Made by a program: the position numbers and the translations under genes. DNA of 36,367 nt from the NCBI GenBank assembly GCA_023251255.1, contig JAHEZD010000062.1, positions 1 to 36,367 of the forward strand. The letters are read 5' to 3'. Under the pieces are notes generated by a model, which made no database searches, was not told the DNA's origin, and was given only the letters and a program-made list of their open reading frames with translations. The stretch comes from Chitinophagaceae bacterium (lineage in GTDB: Bacteria; Bacteroidota; Bacteroidia; Chitinophagales; Chitinophagaceae). Of this stretch, positions 8,245 through 36,367 are shown piece by piece. Position 1 is the first letter of the stretch. Every line of letters begins with the position of its first letter.

Positions 8245-9240
8245 ATGTCCCATTTCCCCGTAACCAATTCCAACCTTTCAGCCGCACATTTGGCACCCTT
8301 CCTGCAGCAACGATATGCGCTGGGCAATGATGCCAGTTGCCAGTTGATCAAAGCTGGCATCAATGATACCTACTTGGTAAGCGGCCCACAGTACAAAATG
8401 GTGTTCCGTGTATACAGCTACAACTGGCGTACCAGGACCGAGATCAACGAGGAAATAAAACTGCTGCTGGAACTGAAGGAAAATGGCCTATCCATCTCCT
8501 ACCCCATTGCCGATGCGGAAGGCCATTTTATACAGGTGCTGCCTGCACCGGAGGGCGACCGTTTTGCGGTGCTTTTCTCCTATGCGCCCGGGCAGAAACT
8601 GCACAGTTTCTCCACGGAAGCGCATTACCGTATTGGTGAGCTCATGGCCAGGCTGCACCGGGCAACACAGCACCAGCAATTGCAGCGGGTAACCTATACA
8701 CCAGCGGTATTGCTGGTGGATTCCTTGCAGCAGGTAGCCAGGTTCCTATCAGCGGGTTCGGAAGAAATGGACTTTATGGTAGCCGCCCAGCAACAGTTGC
8801 TGCGCTTGTTCCAACAGGCCGATACCGCACATATACGGCAGGGCATTGTACACATGGATGTCTGGTTTGACAACCTGAACATTACGGAGCAAAATGAGGT
8901 GACGCTTTTTGACTTTGACTTCTGCGGCAATGGCTGGCTATGCCTGGACATAGCTTATTATATACTGCAACTGCACAATGTGGAGAAATACGTAGCAGCA
9001 GATTACCAGCCAAAGATGGACAGTTTTGTACAAGGCTATGCATCCATTACCCCTATTTCCGATGAGGAGAGGCGGTTGCTGCCCATGCTGGGCGTAAGTA
9101 TGTACTTCTTCTACCTCGGCATCCAATGCCAGCGTTTTGATAACTGGTCCAATTCCTTCCTCAGCGAAAACTATTTGAAACGGTTCGTTAATGGCCTAGT
9201 GAAAAGGTATTATGATATGTATGAACTGGGAAACCTATAA
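8245..9240 (+). CDS. APH-family phosphotransferase (homoserine kinase II-like)
   Basis: 331 residues with the protein-kinase-like fold of small-molecule kinases. Catalytic loop HMDVWFDN at 203-210 (catalytic Asp205, Asn210) and metal-binding DFDF at 223-226 are both intact; the nucleotide-binding lobe contains IKAGINDTYLV and KMVFRVY. Substrates in this superfamily range from homoserine and choline to aminoglycosides; nothing here points to resistance. The last codons (GNL and TAA) lie inside the first palindrome of the repeat array that follows, so the array provides the stop codon. Confidence 0.75.
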   Translation: MSHFPVTNSNLSAAHLAPFLQQRYALGNDASCQLIKAGINDTYLVSGPQYKMVFRVYSYNWRTRTEINEEIKLLLELKENGLSISYPIADAEGHFIQVLPAPEGDRFAVLFSYAPGQKLHSFSTEAHYRIGELMARLHRATQHQQLQRVTYTPAVLLVDSLQQVARFLSAGSEEMDFMVAAQQQLLRLFQQADTAHIRQGIVHMDVWFDNLNITEQNEVTLFDFDFCGNGWLCLDIAYYILQLHNVEKYVAADYQPKMDSFVQGYASITPISDEERRLLPMLGVSMYFFYLGIQCQRFDNWSNSFLSENYLKRFVNGLVKRYYDMYELGNL

Positions 9241-9913
9241 GGTTTATAACCTCCTCCATTAATCAAACCTTATAGGCTTATGCACGGCCCTAAAAAACCT
9301 ATAAGGTTTATAAACTCCTCCATCAATCAACCTTATAGGTTTACATCCGCAACGCAAAAAACCTATAAGGTTTATAAACTCCTCCATCAATCAACCTTAT
9401 AGGTTTATACACGGCCCCAAAAAAACCTATAAGGTTTATAAACTCCTCCATCAATCAACCTTATAGGTTCACATCCGCAACGCAAAAAACCTATAAGGTT
9501 TATAAACTCCTCCATCAATCAACCTTATAGGTTCACATCCGCAACGCAAAAAACCTATAAGGTTTATAAACTCCTCCATCAATCAACCTTATAGGTTTAC
9601 ATCCACAACGAAAAAACCTATAAGGTTTATGCACTCCTCCACCAATCAACCTTATAGGTTTACATCCACAACGCAAAAAAACTATAAGGTTTATGCACTC
9701 CTCCATCAATCAACCTTATAGGTTTACATCCGCAACGAAAAAACCTATAAGGTTTATACACTCCTCCACCAATCAACCTTATAGGTTTACATCCGCAACG
9801 CAAAAAACCTATAAGGTTTATAAACTCCTCCATCAATCAACCTTATAGGTTTACATCCACAACGAAAAAACCTATAAGGTTATCGGTGCATACACCCTGA
9901 AACCTTATAGGTT
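9232..9913. repeat. Array of 11 units (about 64 bp) built from 13-bp palindromes
   Basis: Units start at 9232, 9296, 9360, 9424, 9488, 9552, 9615, 9680, 9742, 9806 and 9869. Each has AACCTATAAGGTT, a 20-bp spacer (typically tataaactcctccatcaatc), then its exact reverse complement AACCTTATAGGTT, then about 18 bp (tacatccgcaacgcaaaa). Every 13-mer is itself near-palindromic, so each unit can form a 13-bp stem or two small cruciforms. Spacers are conserved, not unique. Unit 8 has lost one C; units 1 and 11 are the most diverged, as expected for edges of an array that expands and homogenises. It encodes nothing. Confidence 0.9.
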
Positions 9914-11497: not shown

Positions 11498-12127
11498 ATG
11501 CTTGAACAACTACAGAAACAGTTCCCCCAATTCGAACCCCCTTTGCAGGAAAGGATCAGTGAAGCTTCCTTTATTAAAAATTTCAAGGCAGGAGAAATGC
11601 TCATGCGTACAGGGCAGAACATACGCTCGACCGCATTGATACTTACTGGACTGTTGAAGGTATACCGTGAAGATGATGAAGGCAATGAGTTTTTCATGTA
11701 CTACCTGCAACCGGGACAGGCCTGCGCATTAAGTATGGTATGCGCCACCAGCCAGCAAACAAGTCAGTTAATGGTAAAAGCCGTGGCTGATGCGGAAGTG
11801 ATCATGGTGCCCTTGGAATACATGGAAAAATGGATGGGCGAGTTCAAGACCTGGTACCAGTTTGTGGTGGAAACCTACCGTGCAAGGTTTGAGGAACTGC
11901 TCATCACCATTGACCATGTGGCCTTCAGGAACATGGACGAACGTTTGGAATTCTACTTGAAAAAGCACCAGCAGGTTTTAAGGAGCAACAGTATTCCCAT
12001 AACACACCAGGAAATTGCCAATGAACTCAACTCTTCAAGGGAAGTTATTTCAAGGCTCATGAAAAAGATGGAGGAACGTGGAAAGATAAAACTGCACCGG
12101 AACCATGTGGAGATTATCAAACTATAA
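11498..12127 (+). CDS. Crp/Fnr family regulator of the sulfur cluster
   Basis: 209 residues from ATG 11498; a TTG two codons earlier is less likely. Residues about 25-115 form the cyclic-nucleotide-type sensor barrel (FKAGEMLMRTGQ, YREDDEGNEFFMYYLQPGQACALS). The C-terminal winged helix has ITHQEIANELNSSREVISRLMKK as its recognition unit. The cAMP-binding RxS phosphate cassette is not evident, so the ligand is unknown. A conserved Cys near ACALSMVC could sense sulfur or redox; that is inference. It lies directly upstream of tauE, whose promoter and that of the CstB-like gene carry TGTGA-N6-TCACA operators. Confidence 0.8.
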   Translation: MLEQLQKQFPQFEPPLQERISEASFIKNFKAGEMLMRTGQNIRSTALILTGLLKVYREDDEGNEFFMYYLQPGQACALSMVCATSQQTSQLMVKAVADAEVIMVPLEYMEKWMGEFKTWYQFVVETYRARFEELLITIDHVAFRNMDERLEFYLKKHQQVLRSNSIPITHQEIANELNSSREVISRLMKKMEERGKIKLHRNHVEIIKL

Positions 12128-12135
12128 TTTCCCAT

Positions 12136-12180
12136 TGTGATATTTATCACCAACCAAGCTTCCTGTTGCCAGCATTTTTG
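12136..12180 (+). promoter_or_regulatory. Crp-type operator and -7 box of the tauE promoter
   Basis: TGTGA-TATTTA-TCACC at 12136-12151 matches nine of ten bases of the Crp consensus TGTGA-N6-TCACA and includes a perfect 14-bp palindrome (12137-12150). CATTTTTG at 12173-12180 is a -7 box with one mismatch. Centre-to-centre distance is 33 bp, placing the operator near -40, the class II activator position. The start codon follows at 12198. Confidence 0.75.
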
Positions 12181-12197
12181 CTTCAAATAGAATACAG

Positions 12198-12980
12198 ATG
12201 CTGGCAGGTTACTTGGCTTCCATATTGATTGGTTTTTCATTGGGCCTCATTGGTGGTGGTGGTTCCATACTCACCCTTCCCGTACTCGTTTACCTGTTCC
12301 ATTTGCCCCCAGCGCTGGCCACTTCCTATTCGTTGTTCATTGTGGGCACCACCAGTTTGGCAGGTACCATTTCCAATTACCAACAGGGCCATGTACACAC
12401 CAAAACAGCACTGCTGTTTGGTGCCACATCGGTATCAACGGTGTTTGTGGTAAGGCGTTTCTTATTGCCCAACATTCCGGATACACTCCTGGCCATTGGC
12501 GACTGGCAGTTAACACATTCATTGGCCACCATGGTCCTTTTTGCCATGCTCATGCTGCTTGCATCCATATCCATGATAAGGAACAGGCCCGTACAGAAAA
12601 ACACCGCACAAAAACAGCTTCCACATTACCTGCTTTTTATGTATGGCATTGCCATTGGCATAGTAACAGGTTTCCTGGGCGCAGGTGGTGGCTTCCTTAT
12701 TATACCCGCATTGGTGCTGCTGTGCAAACTTGATATGAAACAGGCCATCGGCACATCATTGCTCATCATCACACTCAATTCATTGATAGGGTTTACTGGA
12801 GATTTGGGCCAGCACCAGATTGATTGGACATTCCTCTTTTCCGTTACAGCCATTGCCATTGTAGGTTTGCTGGTTGGCGGCATCATCAGCCACAAAACAG
12901 ATGCAGCCAAACTTAAAAGAGGGTTTGGCTGGTTTGTATTGGTAATGGGTATCTACATTCTTTTGAAGGAAATACTCTAA
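12198..12980 (+). CDS. TauE/SafE family anion exporter
   Basis: 260 residues, seven to eight membrane helices in two related halves. Each half opens with a glycine-rich signature: GFSLGLIGGGGSILTLPVLV at 12-31 and GIVTGFLGAGGGFLIIPALV in the second half. This is the hallmark of the TauE/SafE/YfcA family, which exports sulfite, sulfoacetate or related sulfur anions. It sits between a Crp/Fnr gene and the CstB-like gene; in Staphylococcus aureus a tauE gene is likewise part of the cst sulfide-detoxification locus. Export of sulfite or thiosulfate made by the cluster is the likely role. Confidence 0.85.
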   Translation: MLAGYLASILIGFSLGLIGGGGSILTLPVLVYLFHLPPALATSYSLFIVGTTSLAGTISNYQQGHVHTKTALLFGATSVSTVFVVRRFLLPNIPDTLLAIGDWQLTHSLATMVLFAMLMLLASISMIRNRPVQKNTAQKQLPHYLLFMYGIAIGIVTGFLGAGGGFLIIPALVLLCKLDMKQAIGTSLLIITLNSLIGFTGDLGQHQIDWTFLFSVTAIAIVGLLVGGIISHKTDAAKLKRGFGWFVLVMGIYILLKEIL

Positions 12981-13110
12981 AGCTTTGCAGCACTATCGCC
13001 AAGGTTTAGGGCCGCCGGCACGGTTATTCTCAGGAACGAAAGGAAAACTACCCATGGCTTTACGGCCCATAAATGGTTCTACCAAAAAAGGGTCAACAAA
13101 AATGCAGCTA

Positions 13111-13155
13111 AGTGATTTCTGTCACAAAAAAACCTGCAACCTTTTTCCACATTTG
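13111..13155 (+). promoter_or_regulatory. Crp-type operator and -7 box of the CstB-like gene
   Basis: AGTGA-TTTCTG-TCACA at 13111-13126 matches nine of ten bases of TGTGA-N6-TCACA. CACATTTG at 13148-13155 is a -7 box with one mismatch. Their centres are 33 bp apart, identical to the tauE promoter, so both genes are probably activated by the Crp/Fnr protein encoded at 11498. Confidence 0.75.
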
Positions 13156-14658: not shown

Positions 14659-14970
14659 ATGTTCAAGGCAATTAAAAAAATATTTGGAAATGCTACCAAT
14701 TACAAGCAATTGGTGCAGGATGGCGCAATCATTGTGGATGTTAGAACAGGACCGGAATTTCTAAGTGGCCATATCAACGGAGCAATCAATATACCATTGG
14801 ATTTCATTACCACAAGAATAGCCGAATTGAAGAAAAGCAACAGGCCCATTATTACCTGCTGCAGAAGTGGGGCAAGAAGTGGCATGGCCAGGGCAGCTTT
14901 ATCGGCAGCGGGGCTGCAAGCATACAATGGTGGCGCTTGGGACAGTTTGGACAAAAAAATAAATTGGTAG
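14659..14970 (+). CDS. Single-domain rhodanese
   Basis: 103 residues from ATG 14659 (MFKAIKKIFG); a longer frame from 14623 would put its N-terminus in the hairpin. The domain shows IIVDVRTGPEFLSGHINGAINIPL and the active-site loop TCCRSGARS, with the catalytic Cys as the second of two Cys. It moves sulfane sulfur between thiosulfate, persulfides and thiols. Placed right after the CstB-like gene and before thioredoxin, it probably hands sulfur to or from these partners in the cytoplasm. Confidence 0.85.
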   Translation: MFKAIKKIFGNATNYKQLVQDGAIIVDVRTGPEFLSGHINGAINIPLDFITTRIAELKKSNRPIITCCRSGARSGMARAALSAAGLQAYNGGAWDSLDKKINW

Positions 14971-15110: not shown

Positions 15111-15425
15111 ATGTCAACAGCTAATCCTTCTTTTACTGAACTCATCAATGGGAACAAACCTGTACTGGTAGATTTTTTTGCCGAATGGTGCGGTCCCTGC
15201 AAAATGATGCCCCCTATTTTGAAGAAGGTTAAAGACGACCTGAAAGATACCGTGACCATTATTAAAATAGATGTGGACAAGAACCCCGCCATAGCACAGC
15301 GCTACCAGGTCCAGGGCGTGCCCACATTGATTGTCTTCCAAAATGGGCAGTCCAAATGGAGGCAGAGCGGCGTGGTGCAGGCCAAGCAACTGGAACAGGT
15401 ACTGCAGCAGTTCGTTCCTAAGTAG
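15111..15425 (+). CDS. trxA: Thioredoxin
   Basis: 104 residues, normal thioredoxin length. Active site WCGPCK with Cys27 and Cys30; VDFFAEWCGPCKMMPPIL, the buried Asp (Asp21), and the cis-proline loop GVPTLIVF are all present. It reduces disulfides and can release sulfane sulfur from persulfidated proteins such as rhodanese. Its place in the sulfur cluster suggests a dedicated reductant for CstB or rhodanese, while the family also serves general redox needs. A possible -7 box, TAACTTTC, lies at 15077-15084; no Crp-type site stands 33 bp upstream of it. Confidence 0.9.
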   Translation: MSTANPSFTELINGNKPVLVDFFAEWCGPCKMMPPILKKVKDDLKDTVTIIKIDVDKNPAIAQRYQVQGVPTLIVFQNGQSKWRQSGVVQAKQLEQVLQQFVPK

Positions 15426-15593: not shown

Positions 15594-16157
15594 ATGACCG
15601 GATACTTACACAACCCTTGGCCATGGTATATAGGCGGGGCCATTATTGGACTGACCGTACCAGCCCTGTTATTATTGGGCAATAAACATTTTGGCATCTC
15701 GTCCAACCTGCGCCATATATGCGCAGCCTGCTTACCTGCCAAAATCCCCTTCTTCCAATACGAATGGAAAAAAGAAACCTGGAACCTCTTCTTTGCAGGG
15801 GGAATCATGGTCGGGGCATTTATTGCATCCCATTATTTGGGCAATCATGAACCCATCAAAATAAGCCCACAACTGGTAGGCGAACTGCAAACCTATGGCG
15901 TGAAAGACTATAGCCAATTGATGCCCAATGACCTGTTCAATATGCAGACCCTGCTATCAATAAAAGGTTTCTTCCTATTTGTGGTAGGCGGTTTCCTGGT
16001 GGGTTTCGGAACAAGGTATGCGGGCGGCTGCACCAGTGGCCATGCCATAACGGGGCTGAGCAATTTGCAATGGCCATCATTGATAGCCACTATCAGTTTT
16101 ATGGTTGGGGGCTTTATCATGGCCAACCTGATCCTTCCATTTATCCTTAAACTTTAA
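15594..16157 (+). CDS. YeeE/YedE family transporter, first half
   Basis: 187 residues, about four to five membrane helices. It carries the family signature [13 protein letters not shown] at 144-156 with Cys146, and HICAACLP near residue 41-48. YeeE/YedE (TsuA-type) proteins move thiosulfate across the inner membrane through a path of cysteines. Here the function is split over two adjacent genes: the next one, 5 bp downstream, supplies the second half. Together they match the size of the single-chain transporter. Confidence 0.8.
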
Positions 16158-16162
16158 ACTGC

Positions 16163-16690
16163 ATGGACCATACAAAAAGCATAGCCCCCTTGGCCGAGGA
16201 AATAGCTGCCAATACCGATTTCGAAGTGAGGTCACTGGATACGGTCTGCATAAACGAATCACACCTCACCCATAAATGGTACAGCAATTTCAAGTACATG
16301 CTGGTAGGCATCCTGTTCGGGATAGCCTTTGTAAAAACTGAAATCATTTCATGGTTCAGGATACAGGAAATGTTCAGGCTGCAAAGCTTCCACATGTATG
16401 GGGTAATAGGCACGGCAGTGTTGGTGGGCATGGTTTCGGTGCAGCTCATTAAACGCTTCAATATCAAAACCATATATGGGGAGCCAGTGCTGTTCCACAA
16501 AAAGAAATTCAACAAGGGGCAAATTATCGGTGGGCTCATGTTCGGTCTTGGCTGGGCATTAACGGGTGCCTGCCCCGGGCCATTGTTTGCACAAATTGGT
16601 GCTGGCTTCCTCGTGGTAACAGTAACCCTGTTAAGCGCCATAGCCGGCACTTGGGTATATGGCTATTACAGGGATAAATTGCCGCATTGA
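16163..16690 (+). CDS. YeeE/YedE family transporter, second half (DUF6691-type)
   Basis: 175 residues. A 40-residue cytoplasmic N-terminus is followed by about four membrane helices. The signature GWALTGACPGPLFAQIGAG at 130-148 with Cys137 is the C-terminal-half motif of this family. It begins 5 bp after the first half, so the two are co-transcribed and probably form one transport unit for a reduced sulfur compound. The N-terminal extension is longer than usual for the family. Confidence 0.8.
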   Translation: MDHTKSIAPLAEEIAANTDFEVRSLDTVCINESHLTHKWYSNFKYMLVGILFGIAFVKTEIISWFRIQEMFRLQSFHMYGVIGTAVLVGMVSVQLIKRFNIKTIYGEPVLFHKKKFNKGQIIGGLMFGLGWALTGACPGPLFAQIGAGFLVVTVTLLSAIAGTWVYGYYRDKLPH

Positions 16691-28453: not shown

Positions 28454-29044
28454 ATGTTTGAACAATTTAGAAGCAGGTTCCCCATCGACAACGAAAAGTG
28501 GAATGATTATATCAGCCACTTTGAACGGATTGCGGTCCCTGCAAAAACCATACTCCTAAAAGAAGAGGCTATTTCAAAGAAGCTCTTCCTGATTGAAAAG
28601 GGATGCCTCCGTGCATGGTTCAATAATGAGGGCAAGGACATTACCTTCCAGTTCTTCTTTGAGAACAGCACGGTAGCTTCTGTTGAAAGTTTCAGGAAAG
28701 GCATTCCAAGCCCTGTCACCATTGAAACACTTGAACCCAGCACCCTATGGTGGATACATAAAAAAGATATGGACAGGATCATGGAGGAGATAAAGAACAT
28801 CCCCGAACTAAGGGACATGTTTATCAACGCCATATTTGAGCGCAGTTTCGATTACATGAAGCATTTCTTTTCATCCATAAAAGATACCCCTGCCCAACGT
28901 TACCTGAACCTTTTAAAAGAAAAACCGCAGGTAGTGAAACGGGTACCACAGCATTACATTGCTTCCTATCTGGGCATTACCACTGTTCACCTTAGCCGCA
29001 TAAAAAACAGGCTGGCAAAAGAAAACAGCCTATCCCGGATTTGA
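28454..29044 (+). CDS. Crp/Fnr family regulator (second)
   Basis: 196 residues. The sensor barrel spans about 20-115 (VPAKTILLKEEAISKKLFLIEKG, then FQFFFENSTVASVESF), with no cAMP phosphate cassette, as is usual for the many Bacteroidota Crp/Fnr paralogues. The C-terminal winged helix holds VPQHYIASYLGITTVHLSRIKNRL. It is followed 60 bp later by an oxidoreductase whose promoter carries a dyad operator at the activator position; the operator even overlaps this gene's stop codon. It probably controls that gene in response to an unknown signal. Confidence 0.82.
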   Translation: MFEQFRSRFPIDNEKWNDYISHFERIAVPAKTILLKEEAISKKLFLIEKGCLRAWFNNEGKDITFQFFFENSTVASVESFRKGIPSPVTIETLEPSTLWWIHKKDMDRIMEEIKNIPELRDMFINAIFERSFDYMKHFFSSIKDTPAQRYLNLLKEKPQVVKRVPQHYIASYLGITTVHLSRIKNRLAKENSLSRI

Positions 29045-34965: not shown

Positions 34966-36367
34966 TTAGAAAAGATACCAATGGTGATTCCCATCGCTTA
35001 CTAATCGCTGAAGGAATTGACCTGACAGAGACGTTAAGCCTCCAGTGCCGGTATTTATGTCATCAACTATTGTGTCGGTGCCTGTACGGGTAATTGAAAA
35101 ACCTGAACCGGTAAAACCTGAACCGGGACTTGTATTTATAAGAATGAGTACCTGTCCAATTGTTGTAGCCGCTGGTAAAGTGAGTGCGGTACCGTCGGGA
35201 ATAAAATATGTACTGGTTGTAGCGGTGAATGTAGTGCTAATTGCTGCTGGGAAAATATTGCTTCCCGGCAATGTTATGTCGGCACTACCATTAAACGACA
35301 CTCCATTAATGGTACGTGCAGTTGCCAATATGGTTGCTTTACCCGCTGTTAAGCTTGCTGCTGTACCAGAGATGTTTGTACCCACCAATGCACTTGGTGT
35401 ACCCAAGGAAGGTGTAACCAAAGTAGGCGAGCTAGAAAAGACTACGTTACCAGTGCCCGTAATATTTGTTGCCGAAGTCAAAGCTGAAACAATATGGTTC
35501 CCCGATGTGGCATTATTGGCAATGCTCAATACCAATGAACCTGCTGATGAAGTAACGTCACCACCTGTATATGCTGGCATTGCACTACTTGGAACGGTAG
35601 TTACTGGACTAGTAGGTGCAAATGGTGTTGCCCCTGTTATATAAATCTGGTTAGCTGCAGTACCATTGGCATAACCTGCACCCGTAGCACCAGTTGCACC
35701 CGCTGCACCTGCAGCTCCCGTTGCTCCAGTTGCTCCTGTAGAACCTGTTGGACCAGTGCTTCCAGTAACACCTGTTACGCCTGTTGCACCAGCAGTTCCC
35801 GCTGAACCTGTAGCACCTGTGGCACCAGTTGAACCTGTTGGTCCAGCAGCGCCGGTTGCACCTGTAGCGCCAGTGCTACCTGTTATTCCTGTTGCGCCCG
35901 TGGCTCCAGTGGAACCGGTTGGTCCAGCGGTACCCGTTGCGCCTGTGGCCCCTGTACTTCCTGTTGGTCCGGCGGCTCCAGTTGCACCATTAGCTCCCGC
36001 AGTTCCTGTTGCTCCGTTTGCTCCAGTAGCTCCTGTTGCGCCTGTACTACCTGTTATTCCTGTTGCGCCCGTGGCTCCAGTGGAACCTGTTGGTCCAGCG
36101 GAACCCGTTGCTCCTGTGGCTCCGGTACTGCCTGTTGGTCCGGCTGCTCCTGTGGCGCCATTAGCACCCGCAGTTCCTGTTGCTCCAGCAGCGCCGGTTG
36201 CACCTGTAGCGCCAGTGCTACCTGTTATTCCTGTTGCGCCCGTTGCACCAGTGGAACCTGTTGGTCCAGCAGCGCCCGTTGCACCTGTGGCTCCGGTACT
36301 GCCTGTTGGTCCGGCTGCTCCTGTGGCGCCATTAGCACCCGCAGTTCCTGTTGCTCCAGCAGCGCCG
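34966..36367 (-). CDS. Collagen-like, tail-fibre-like protein (C-terminal part)
   Basis: The frame is open from the right edge to TAA at 34966, at least 467 residues; the N-terminus lies outside. The first 220 or so residues seen are about 75 Gly-X-Y triplets, mostly [12 protein letters not shown] and GIT, with Thr or Gly-adjacent Ala in place of proline at most positions. Then comes a non-repetitive region with strings found in phage tail fibres and adhesins ([36 protein letters not shown]), and a C-terminal beta-rich domain ending in GNHHWYLF. Such proteins form extended trimeric fibres. Phage origin is possible, but no other phage gene is nearby. Confidence 0.75.
35710..36367 (-). repeat. 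171-bp higher-order repeat inside the collagen-like region
   Basis: The marker TGTTATTCCTGTTGCGCCCG starts at 35881, 36052 and 36223, exactly 171 bp apart each time, which is 57 codons or 19 Gly-X-Y triplets. Flanking sequence is likewise conserved between copies with scattered third-position changes. The last copy runs off the window edge. Confidence 0.85.

Follow-up and report, generated by a model that had tools for sequence, protein, structure and literature searches.

Fixed-distance operators and a linked Crp/Fnr-family regulator point to class II activation of sulfur genes, with a likely persulfide signal, in a Chitinophagaceae bacterium

In E. coli, CRP and FNR activate class II promoters from an operator centred at −41.5, and Bacteroides thetaiotaomicron possesses BT4338, which we take to be a protein of the Crp family. 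BT4338 is an activator with a palindromic site, TATGTT-N4-AACATA, upstream of a putative −7 sequence, and acts on carbohydrate and fusA2 targets (PMC6989115). HcpR2, a Crp/Fnr protein with an hcp regulon linked to nitric oxide (NO), has a GTAAC-N4-GTTAC operator when Glu181 is lost (PMC1274295), CrpPg of Porphyromonas gingivalis is by its title a cAMP-independent Crp homologue, described for virulence factors (PMC12040651), and the DNA-binding domain of the Crp/Fnr family has been surveyed (PMC12531629). Persulfide-responsive control has been described for CstR, SqrR, BigR and FisR, which belong to the CsoR, ArsR and Fis/sigma-54 families and of which three act as repressors (PMC9774590); MarR-type sulfane-sulfur sensors exist too, and a Crp-like protein of Acinetobacter is reported to be persulfidated (PMC7315123). 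Here we analyse a 36,367-nucleotide stretch of DNA from a Chitinophagaceae bacterium (GenBank assembly GCA_023251255.1, contig JAHEZD010000062.1; 'the window'), in which a Crp/Fnr-family gene (crp) adjoins tauE and a gene for a metallo-beta-lactamase–rhodanese protein (mbl), each preceded by a Crp-type dyad. Among the papers listed by our searches of the open-licence literature, none describes this regulon.

Both dyads fit TGTGA-N6-TCACA at nine of ten bases and lie 33.0 base pairs (bp), centre to centre, from a −7 box in which C replaces T at position 1 (Table 1). A preliminary description of this DNA had reported the match and the identical spacing, and the letters agree with it. The two dyads are the sole single-mismatch ones among nine matches in the window with at most two mismatches. 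The neighbouring gene at 11498-12124, likewise pointed out in that description, encodes a member of the Crp/Fnr superfamily, with PF00027, PF13545 and PF00325 all over their cut-offs and a Crp fold in the structural model. We consider it very likely that this linked regulator activates the sulfur genes from a class II position and that persulfide is its probable signal.

The position follows from the geometry of the promoters. In Flavobacterium psychrophilum the TAnnTTTG box is numbered −12 to −5 (PMC9723704), so its centre is at −8.5 and an operator 33 bp away would be centred at −41.5. Thus a single fixed operator distance would place the regulator at the class II activator position by the published box numbering, which sharpens the earlier estimate of near −40. 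The downstream half-site TCAC would then span −38 to −35 and intrude on the site of the −33 element. The predicted leaders are 13 nt (tauE) and 16 nt (mbl) long.

Taken alone, the dyads are unremarkable. The nine matches in the window compare with 19 expected, TGTGAN6TCACA with at most one mismatch occurs 86 times genome-wide against 130 for the reversed pattern, and GTGAN6TCAC-N(10-34)-NAnnTTTG yields nine matches in the genome, the same as its reversed control. Three of these nine, at tauE, mbl and an OsmC gene, have the 33-bp spacing, and each other spacing occurs once. What exceeds chance is the dyad together with a box at one fixed distance, not the dyad by itself. A fourth own-genome spaced site (G000:C22:17309-17352) stands directly before an open reading frame (ORF) of 379 residues, ketoacyl-synthase-like by eye, and may be real; another spaced match, C78:15740, lies opposite a 430-aa ORF and was taken as chance.

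The preliminary description had staked its case beforehand on the dyads being conserved in orthologous promoters, and they are kept there at the same spacing. Promoters were gathered through protein homology, not through the motif, and a dyad was scored as present when at least 7/8 core bases agreed. The mbl set comprised 90 promoters among the matches listed (50 of group A, 20 of the next group and 20 of the paralogous group B), and did not include the 23 matches of ~57-61% identity that fall between groups A2 and B, nor the larger part of group B. A dyad precedes 44 of the 50 group-A genes and one of the 20 group-B genes (Fisher p 5e-11); one group-A dyad, at L071, is probably spurious, being 219 bp upstream and without a box. 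A larger, overlapping set has dyads before tauE in 60/63 promoters and before mbl in 88/97, and the operator consensus could be refined to GTGAY-N4-RTCAY. Of the six group-A promoters that lack the dyad, four are from G022, G043, G099 and G123 (G handles denote family genomes), whose related regulators bear Arg-Val recognition helices; G022, G099 and G123 have a GTAAY-N4-RTTAC site upstream of the same mbl gene at the same spacing. The remaining two are from G036, which has no regulator match at E 1e-20, and G021. Viral contigs searched for mbl relatives contained none. The genome of the window also carries a paralogous MBL-rhodanese gene (G000:C65:1906-3276), 54% identical and with no dyad upstream.

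The spacing is as constant as the dyad. A TTTG lies exactly 33 bp away in 42 of 54 dyads, and at any other distance at most once. In 80 loci of named genomes (Flavihumibacter, Niastella, Sediminibacterium, Chitinophaga, Pedobacter, Flavobacterium and metagenome-assembled genomes), 245 dyads gave 176 in-range TTTG matches, 77 of them at 33 bp and nine at the next commonest distance; these loci (L handles) come in part from the same genomes as the family set, for example L276 = G071:C22, which limits the independence of the two. In the stretch separating operator and box, no position has one base in more than ~54% of cases, so the constancy of the spacing reflects constraint and not recent ancestry. 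The dyads could still be chance matches, as their lack of enrichment in the window and the genome would allow, but conservation, fixed spacing and the paralogue control all contradict this, and we regard it as next to impossible. As to a possible autoregulation of crp, 18/104 crp promoters have a dyad, none with a box (within one base) at 33 bp, and the crp gene of the window has no dyad close upstream and carries a TACATTTG box. In seven of those 18 (L274, L275, L278, L281, L289, L301 and L321), a TTTG stands one base early, as if at 32 bp.

The C-for-T mismatch shared by the two boxes had been noted as a mark of activator-dependent promoters. Of 42 mbl boxes ending in TTTG, 26 begin with C, 14 with G and 2 with T, compared with T in 16 of 19 paralogue promoters (p 6e-10). 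A mismatch at position 1 alone is found in 46/88 mbl boxes, in 42/60 tauE boxes (C, G or A; one further box is perfect) and in 8/12 rhodanese promoters with a dyad. These counts make the mismatch a conserved trait of the mbl, tauE and linked rhodanese promoters; most other targets have T. We dropped a further proposal, that boxes have exactly one mismatch, compensated between T1 and G8, since its p value of 0.0005 in the first set became 0.23 in the larger one. The weakened box at mbl and tauE fits activator dependence, and it bears on the sign of regulation. The known sulfide regulators CstR, SqrR and BigR repress (PMC9774590), and the dyads might by analogy be repressor sites relieved by sulfide. 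A repressor site would need no single exact spacing, however, and both the fixed 33 bp at −41.5 and the weakened boxes are what an activator needs, which makes repression very improbable.

Which genes stand below such sites agrees with a role in sulfur metabolism. In the window, the mbl protein has a metallo-beta-lactamase domain followed by rhodanese domains over ~470 aa, the order of CstB-like MBL-rhodanese proteins, and matches 3tp9 (residues 3-457, E 5.1e-70) and 3r2u (residues 1-454, E 3.5e-62), the latter presumably S. aureus CstB, over nearly its full length; it is a putative CstB-like persulfide dioxygenase-sulfurtransferase. A search of relatives for spaced dyads, as the preliminary description had proposed, used GTGAYN4RTCAY-N26-TTTG in 147 family genomes, with the reversed pattern as control, and returned 236 sites against 45. 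At the proper spacing 93 genomes have a match, compared with 46 when the spacing is 5 bp longer. We picked 80 of the 236 sites by hand among the matches listed, mostly omitting the known mbl/crp loci, and 75 of them gave an ORF. By name, 27 of these 75, all below sites at the 33-bp spacing, are thiol or sulfur genes. The ORFs include TolC-type proteins (8), rhodaneses (6), thioredoxins (5), TauE (4), YgaP-like membrane proteins (3), SQR-like proteins (3), OsmC (3), CoA-disulfide reductase-like proteins (2), tryptophanase-like proteins (2), YeeE (1) and the regulator itself (1), as well as two DUF983-like proteins (named by eye, with no Pfam match) and two unnamed small membrane proteins. Singletons include Dps, an ArsR-type regulator and many without an evident sulfur role. 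One SQR-like representative passes the type III SQR model (E 6e-193) and another falls below the cut-off; a CoA-disulfide reductase-like representative (E 2e-144) lies just under the model cut-offs. Taken singly, the target that the pattern hits most often is a TolC-type efflux gene (L180, L186, L222, L223, L225, L240, L242 and L248).

The dyads could be bound by another Crp/Fnr paralogue, the neighbouring gene being incidental. Four other proteins of the genome are above the HTH_Crp_2 cut-off, and of the 89 genomes that lack a close orthologue, 40 contain one spaced site or more. Several observations nevertheless favour the linked regulator and make this alternative very unlikely. The tauE gene, mbl or both lie within 6 kb of the regulator in 70 of the 80 named loci. 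Orthologues of at least 50% identity occur in 58 of the 147 family genomes, the own genome included (a 52% match over part of the protein in G095 was not counted), and site number follows their presence: the 58 genomes contain 165 spaced sites (control 19) and the other 89 contain 71 (control 26; p 5e-12). The paralogues also bear other recognition helices than the SREVISR of the window regulator, and the operator tends to shift with residue 182 of the linked protein.

This last relationship emerged from a set of 40 loci whose regulators are more distant and frequently linked to mbl; 15 of these regulators (3 + 12) had already been examined in the distant-relative alignment. In 19 of the 40 loci, a complete dyad stands 33 bp from a box that nearly matches. 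Where the regulator has an Arg-Val helix, the operator is GTAAC on both sides in 10/10. Where the helix is Arg-Glu (n = 9), five operators have GTGA on both sides, one is mixed and three have GTAAC (p 0.01 for the helix-operator association). At the Arg-Val locus of G043 the site is mixed and its box is displaced by one base. Eight loci picked with the site known and the helix unknown all fit (two GTGA/Arg-Glu and six GTAA/Arg-Val). Because operator and recognition helix covary, with exceptions, the linked Crp/Fnr protein can be tied to the sites, in agreement with the connection between residue 181 and the operator described before (PMC1274295). A related subgroup appears to use GTAAC-N4-GTTAC operators. 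In the family as a whole, GTAAY-N4-RTTAC at 33 bp shows no enrichment (96 sites, with 132 for the reversed pattern); its signal is restricted to certain genomes, G022 among them, and to sites that adjoin crp and mbl. In G022, the region C1:2653669-2679504 around mbl and crp contains eight GTAAC-N4-GTTAC matches at 33 bp (six distinct palindromes, two of them read on both strands).

The regulator differs from cAMP-CRP and from FNR proper, and it has a candidate sensor. It scores 49.4 bits with the CRP equivalog model, for which 266 are needed, and 23.6 bits with the FNR model, for which 228 are needed. Glu72 and Arg82 of E. coli CRP contact cAMP; in our alignment they correspond to Leu78 and Thr88, and Cys76 and Cys82 of the window protein to Ile70 and Phe76. 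Judged by its sequence, the regulator is not a cAMP-CRP. Only two cysteine columns are invariant in 80 sequences, two more being occupied in 12 and 13 of the 80 (L314, with a stop in frame, was excluded). Cys76 and Cys82 are present in 80/80 of these sequences and in 27/27 family sequences, sets that overlap in the window protein and perhaps in more; they form a conserved dithiol, as expected of persulfide-sensing regulators. Cys76 is also found in 20/20 distant relatives. None of the four clear Crp/Fnr paralogues in the genome has the pair; one, the paralogue in L339, carries a cysteine one residue earlier. In L335 an additional frame (E 0.0055), distinct from its Crp frame, aligned with cysteines in both columns and was regarded as spurious. 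AlphaFold2 gave a Crp fold with a mean pLDDT (predicted local distance difference test) of 82.7 and a pTM (predicted template modelling score) of 0.57. Because the pair is invariant, absent from the paralogues and placed where CRP has its cAMP cassette, reactive sulfane sulfur (persulfide or polysulfide) is the likely signal.

A plausible, if less probable, alternative keeps the operator and class II activation and assigns the regulator another signal (redox state, NO, oxygen, sulfite or a small molecule), with the cysteines structural or cofactor-ligating. The Bacteroidota Crp/Fnr protein HcpR is reported to sense NO through heme and PgRsp to act in redox stress with heme, and a few spaced sites stand before genes such as Dps and an oxygen-independent HemN-like gene (the latter named by eye). 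Yet the recurrent targets besides TolC are mostly thiol and sulfane-sulfur genes, and exactly two cysteine columns are invariant, with no such pair in the clear paralogues of the same genome.

Computation establishes the operators, their spacing and conservation, the target genes, the covariation of operator and helix and the invariant cysteine pair. In the mechanism that we infer, the regulator would bind GTGAY-N4-RTCAY operators centred at −41.5 directly and would activate, not repress, sigma-A promoters as a class II activator, the downstream half-site reaching into the place of the −33 element and the dimer touching RNA polymerase there; a box weakened at its first base (CAnnTTTG) at mbl, tauE and the linked rhodanese genes fits such a need for an activator. 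Its ligand would be a persulfide or polysulfide that bridges Cys76 and Cys82, two residues that align with the cassette by which E. coli CRP binds cAMP. The targets would be a set for handling sulfide, persulfide and sulfite: the window contributes tauE and the CstB-like mbl, the rest of the genome probably osmC, and relatives add genes for rhodanese, thioredoxin, SQR-like, CoA-disulfide reductase-like and YgaP-like proteins, YeeE and a TolC-type porin.

A number of observations weigh against this account, in whole or in part. In the window, none of rho, trx and yee1 is preceded by a dyad of its own, and in relatives dyads are found before only 12/57, 3/36 and 14/43 promoters of these genes; the next mbl group has the dyad in 10/20 promoters and lacks it in the other 10/20, and the OsmC site of the own genome is ~190 bp before the ORF. 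About 45 of the 236 spaced sites are expected by chance, and the names of 48 of the 75 ORFs, eight of them TolC, indicate no thiol or sulfur gene. Box weakening is not universal, since 14/88 mbl promoters have a perfect TAnnTTTG box and most targets other than mbl and tauE have T at position 1 (TolC 8/8, thioredoxin 5/5, YgaP-like 3/3, SQR-like 2/3 and the own-genome osmC site). GTAAC occurs beside three of the nine Arg-Glu regulators (G047 and G135, of one genus), and the 71 spaced sites in genomes without a 50%-identical Crp suggest that other Crp/Fnr proteins may use the same geometry. As for the sensor, Cys82 is lost in 10 of the 20 distant relatives, and residues 79-87 of the model have pLDDT below 50, the structure being poorly defined there.

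Table 1. Regulator, operators, −7 boxes and sulfur genes of the window
Feature	Position	Strand	Basis
Crp/Fnr-family regulator gene (crp), 209 aa, proposed activator	11498-12127	+	PF00027, PF13545, PF00325 above cut-offs
tauE operator TGTGATATTTATCACC	12136-12151	+	motif search; TGTGA-N6-TCACA matched at 9/10
tauE −7 box CATTTTTG, 33 bp from operator	12173-12180	+	letters checked; CAnnTTTG type
tauE predicted transcription start	12185	+	from box numbering of PMC9723704
tauE, TauE/SafE sulfite-exporter family, 260 aa	12198-12980	+	PF01925, E 2.8e-44
mbl operator AGTGATTTCTGTCACA	13111-13126	+	motif search; TGTGA-N6-TCACA matched at 9/10
mbl −7 box CACATTTG, 33 bp from operator	13148-13155	+	letters checked; CAnnTTTG type
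mbl predicted transcription start	13160	+	from box numbering of PMC9723704
mbl, metallo-beta-lactamase + two rhodanese stretches, 472 aa	13176-14594	+	Pfam
Single-domain rhodanese (rho)	14662-14970	+	PF00581
Thioredoxin (trx)	15111-15425	+	TIGR01068 above cut-off
YeeE/YedE-type sulfur transporter half 1 (yee1)	15594-16157	+	PF04143
YeeE/YedE-type sulfur transporter half 2	16163-16690	+	PF04143 and PF20398

Elsewhere in the window, ~10 tandem copies of a 64-bp unit with AACCTATAAGGTT-like inverted pieces lie between two ORFs (9231-9881), a second ORF at 28454-29044 is weakly Crp-like, with HTH_Crp_2 below its cut-off, and long repeats based on 9 bp (consensus e.g. TGCACCTGT) occupy 35676-36367, with a collagen-like coding pattern by eye.

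These results describe in concrete and testable terms how Crp/Fnr activators of Bacteroidota may be positioned, name a candidate regulator for sulfide and persulfide stress in this phylum and supply a natural series of changes in recognition helix and operator. It is about evenly balanced whether they extend to a widespread Bacteroidota clade of Crp/Fnr proteins, in which persulfide sensing by Cys-x5-Cys would replace the cyclic-nucleotide cassette, class II contact with the TAnnTTTG-type sigma factor would be strictly at −41.5, and a sister subgroup would have moved from GTGAC to GTAAC through a Glu-to-Val change with the spacing kept.

Compared with known systems, the regulator shares with E. 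coli CRP and FNR the Crp fold, the Arg-Glu-x-x-x-Arg recognition helix, TGTGA half-sites and an operator at −41.5, but the promoters here have the Bacteroidota −7 box instead of −10/−35 elements, and the NCBIfam CRP and Fnr scores are far below cut-offs. Like CstR, SqrR, BigR and FisR, which sense via cysteine cross-links, it would control genes of sulfide and persulfide detoxification; unlike any of those four, it belongs to the Crp/Fnr family. BT4338 is likewise a Bacteroidota activator with a palindrome upstream of a −7 sequence but differs in operator and targets. A search of 295 class genomes, a sample that may hold few Bacteroides, for TATGTT-N4-AACATA with TTTG at variable distance had 69 matches in 44 genomes, none of them at 33 bp and five at 34. 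HcpR2 shares GTAAC-N4-GTTAC with loss of Glu181, as in the distant subgroup here, and is set apart by its hcp regulon and NO. CrpPg resembles the regulator as, by its title, a cAMP-independent Crp homologue in Bacteroidota, and differs in being described for virulence factors. The closest solved sequence is 3dv8, a Crp/Fnr protein of Eubacterium rectale (E 2.4e-21) that is also the first Foldseek match; its domains are set differently from those of the model, as the root-mean-square deviation of 13.3 indicates, and both its Cys-x5-Cys pair and its R-E-V-I-T-R helix align. Since 3dv8 comes from Firmicutes and has the pair, the Cys-x5-Cys type of sensor may reach beyond Bacteroidota.
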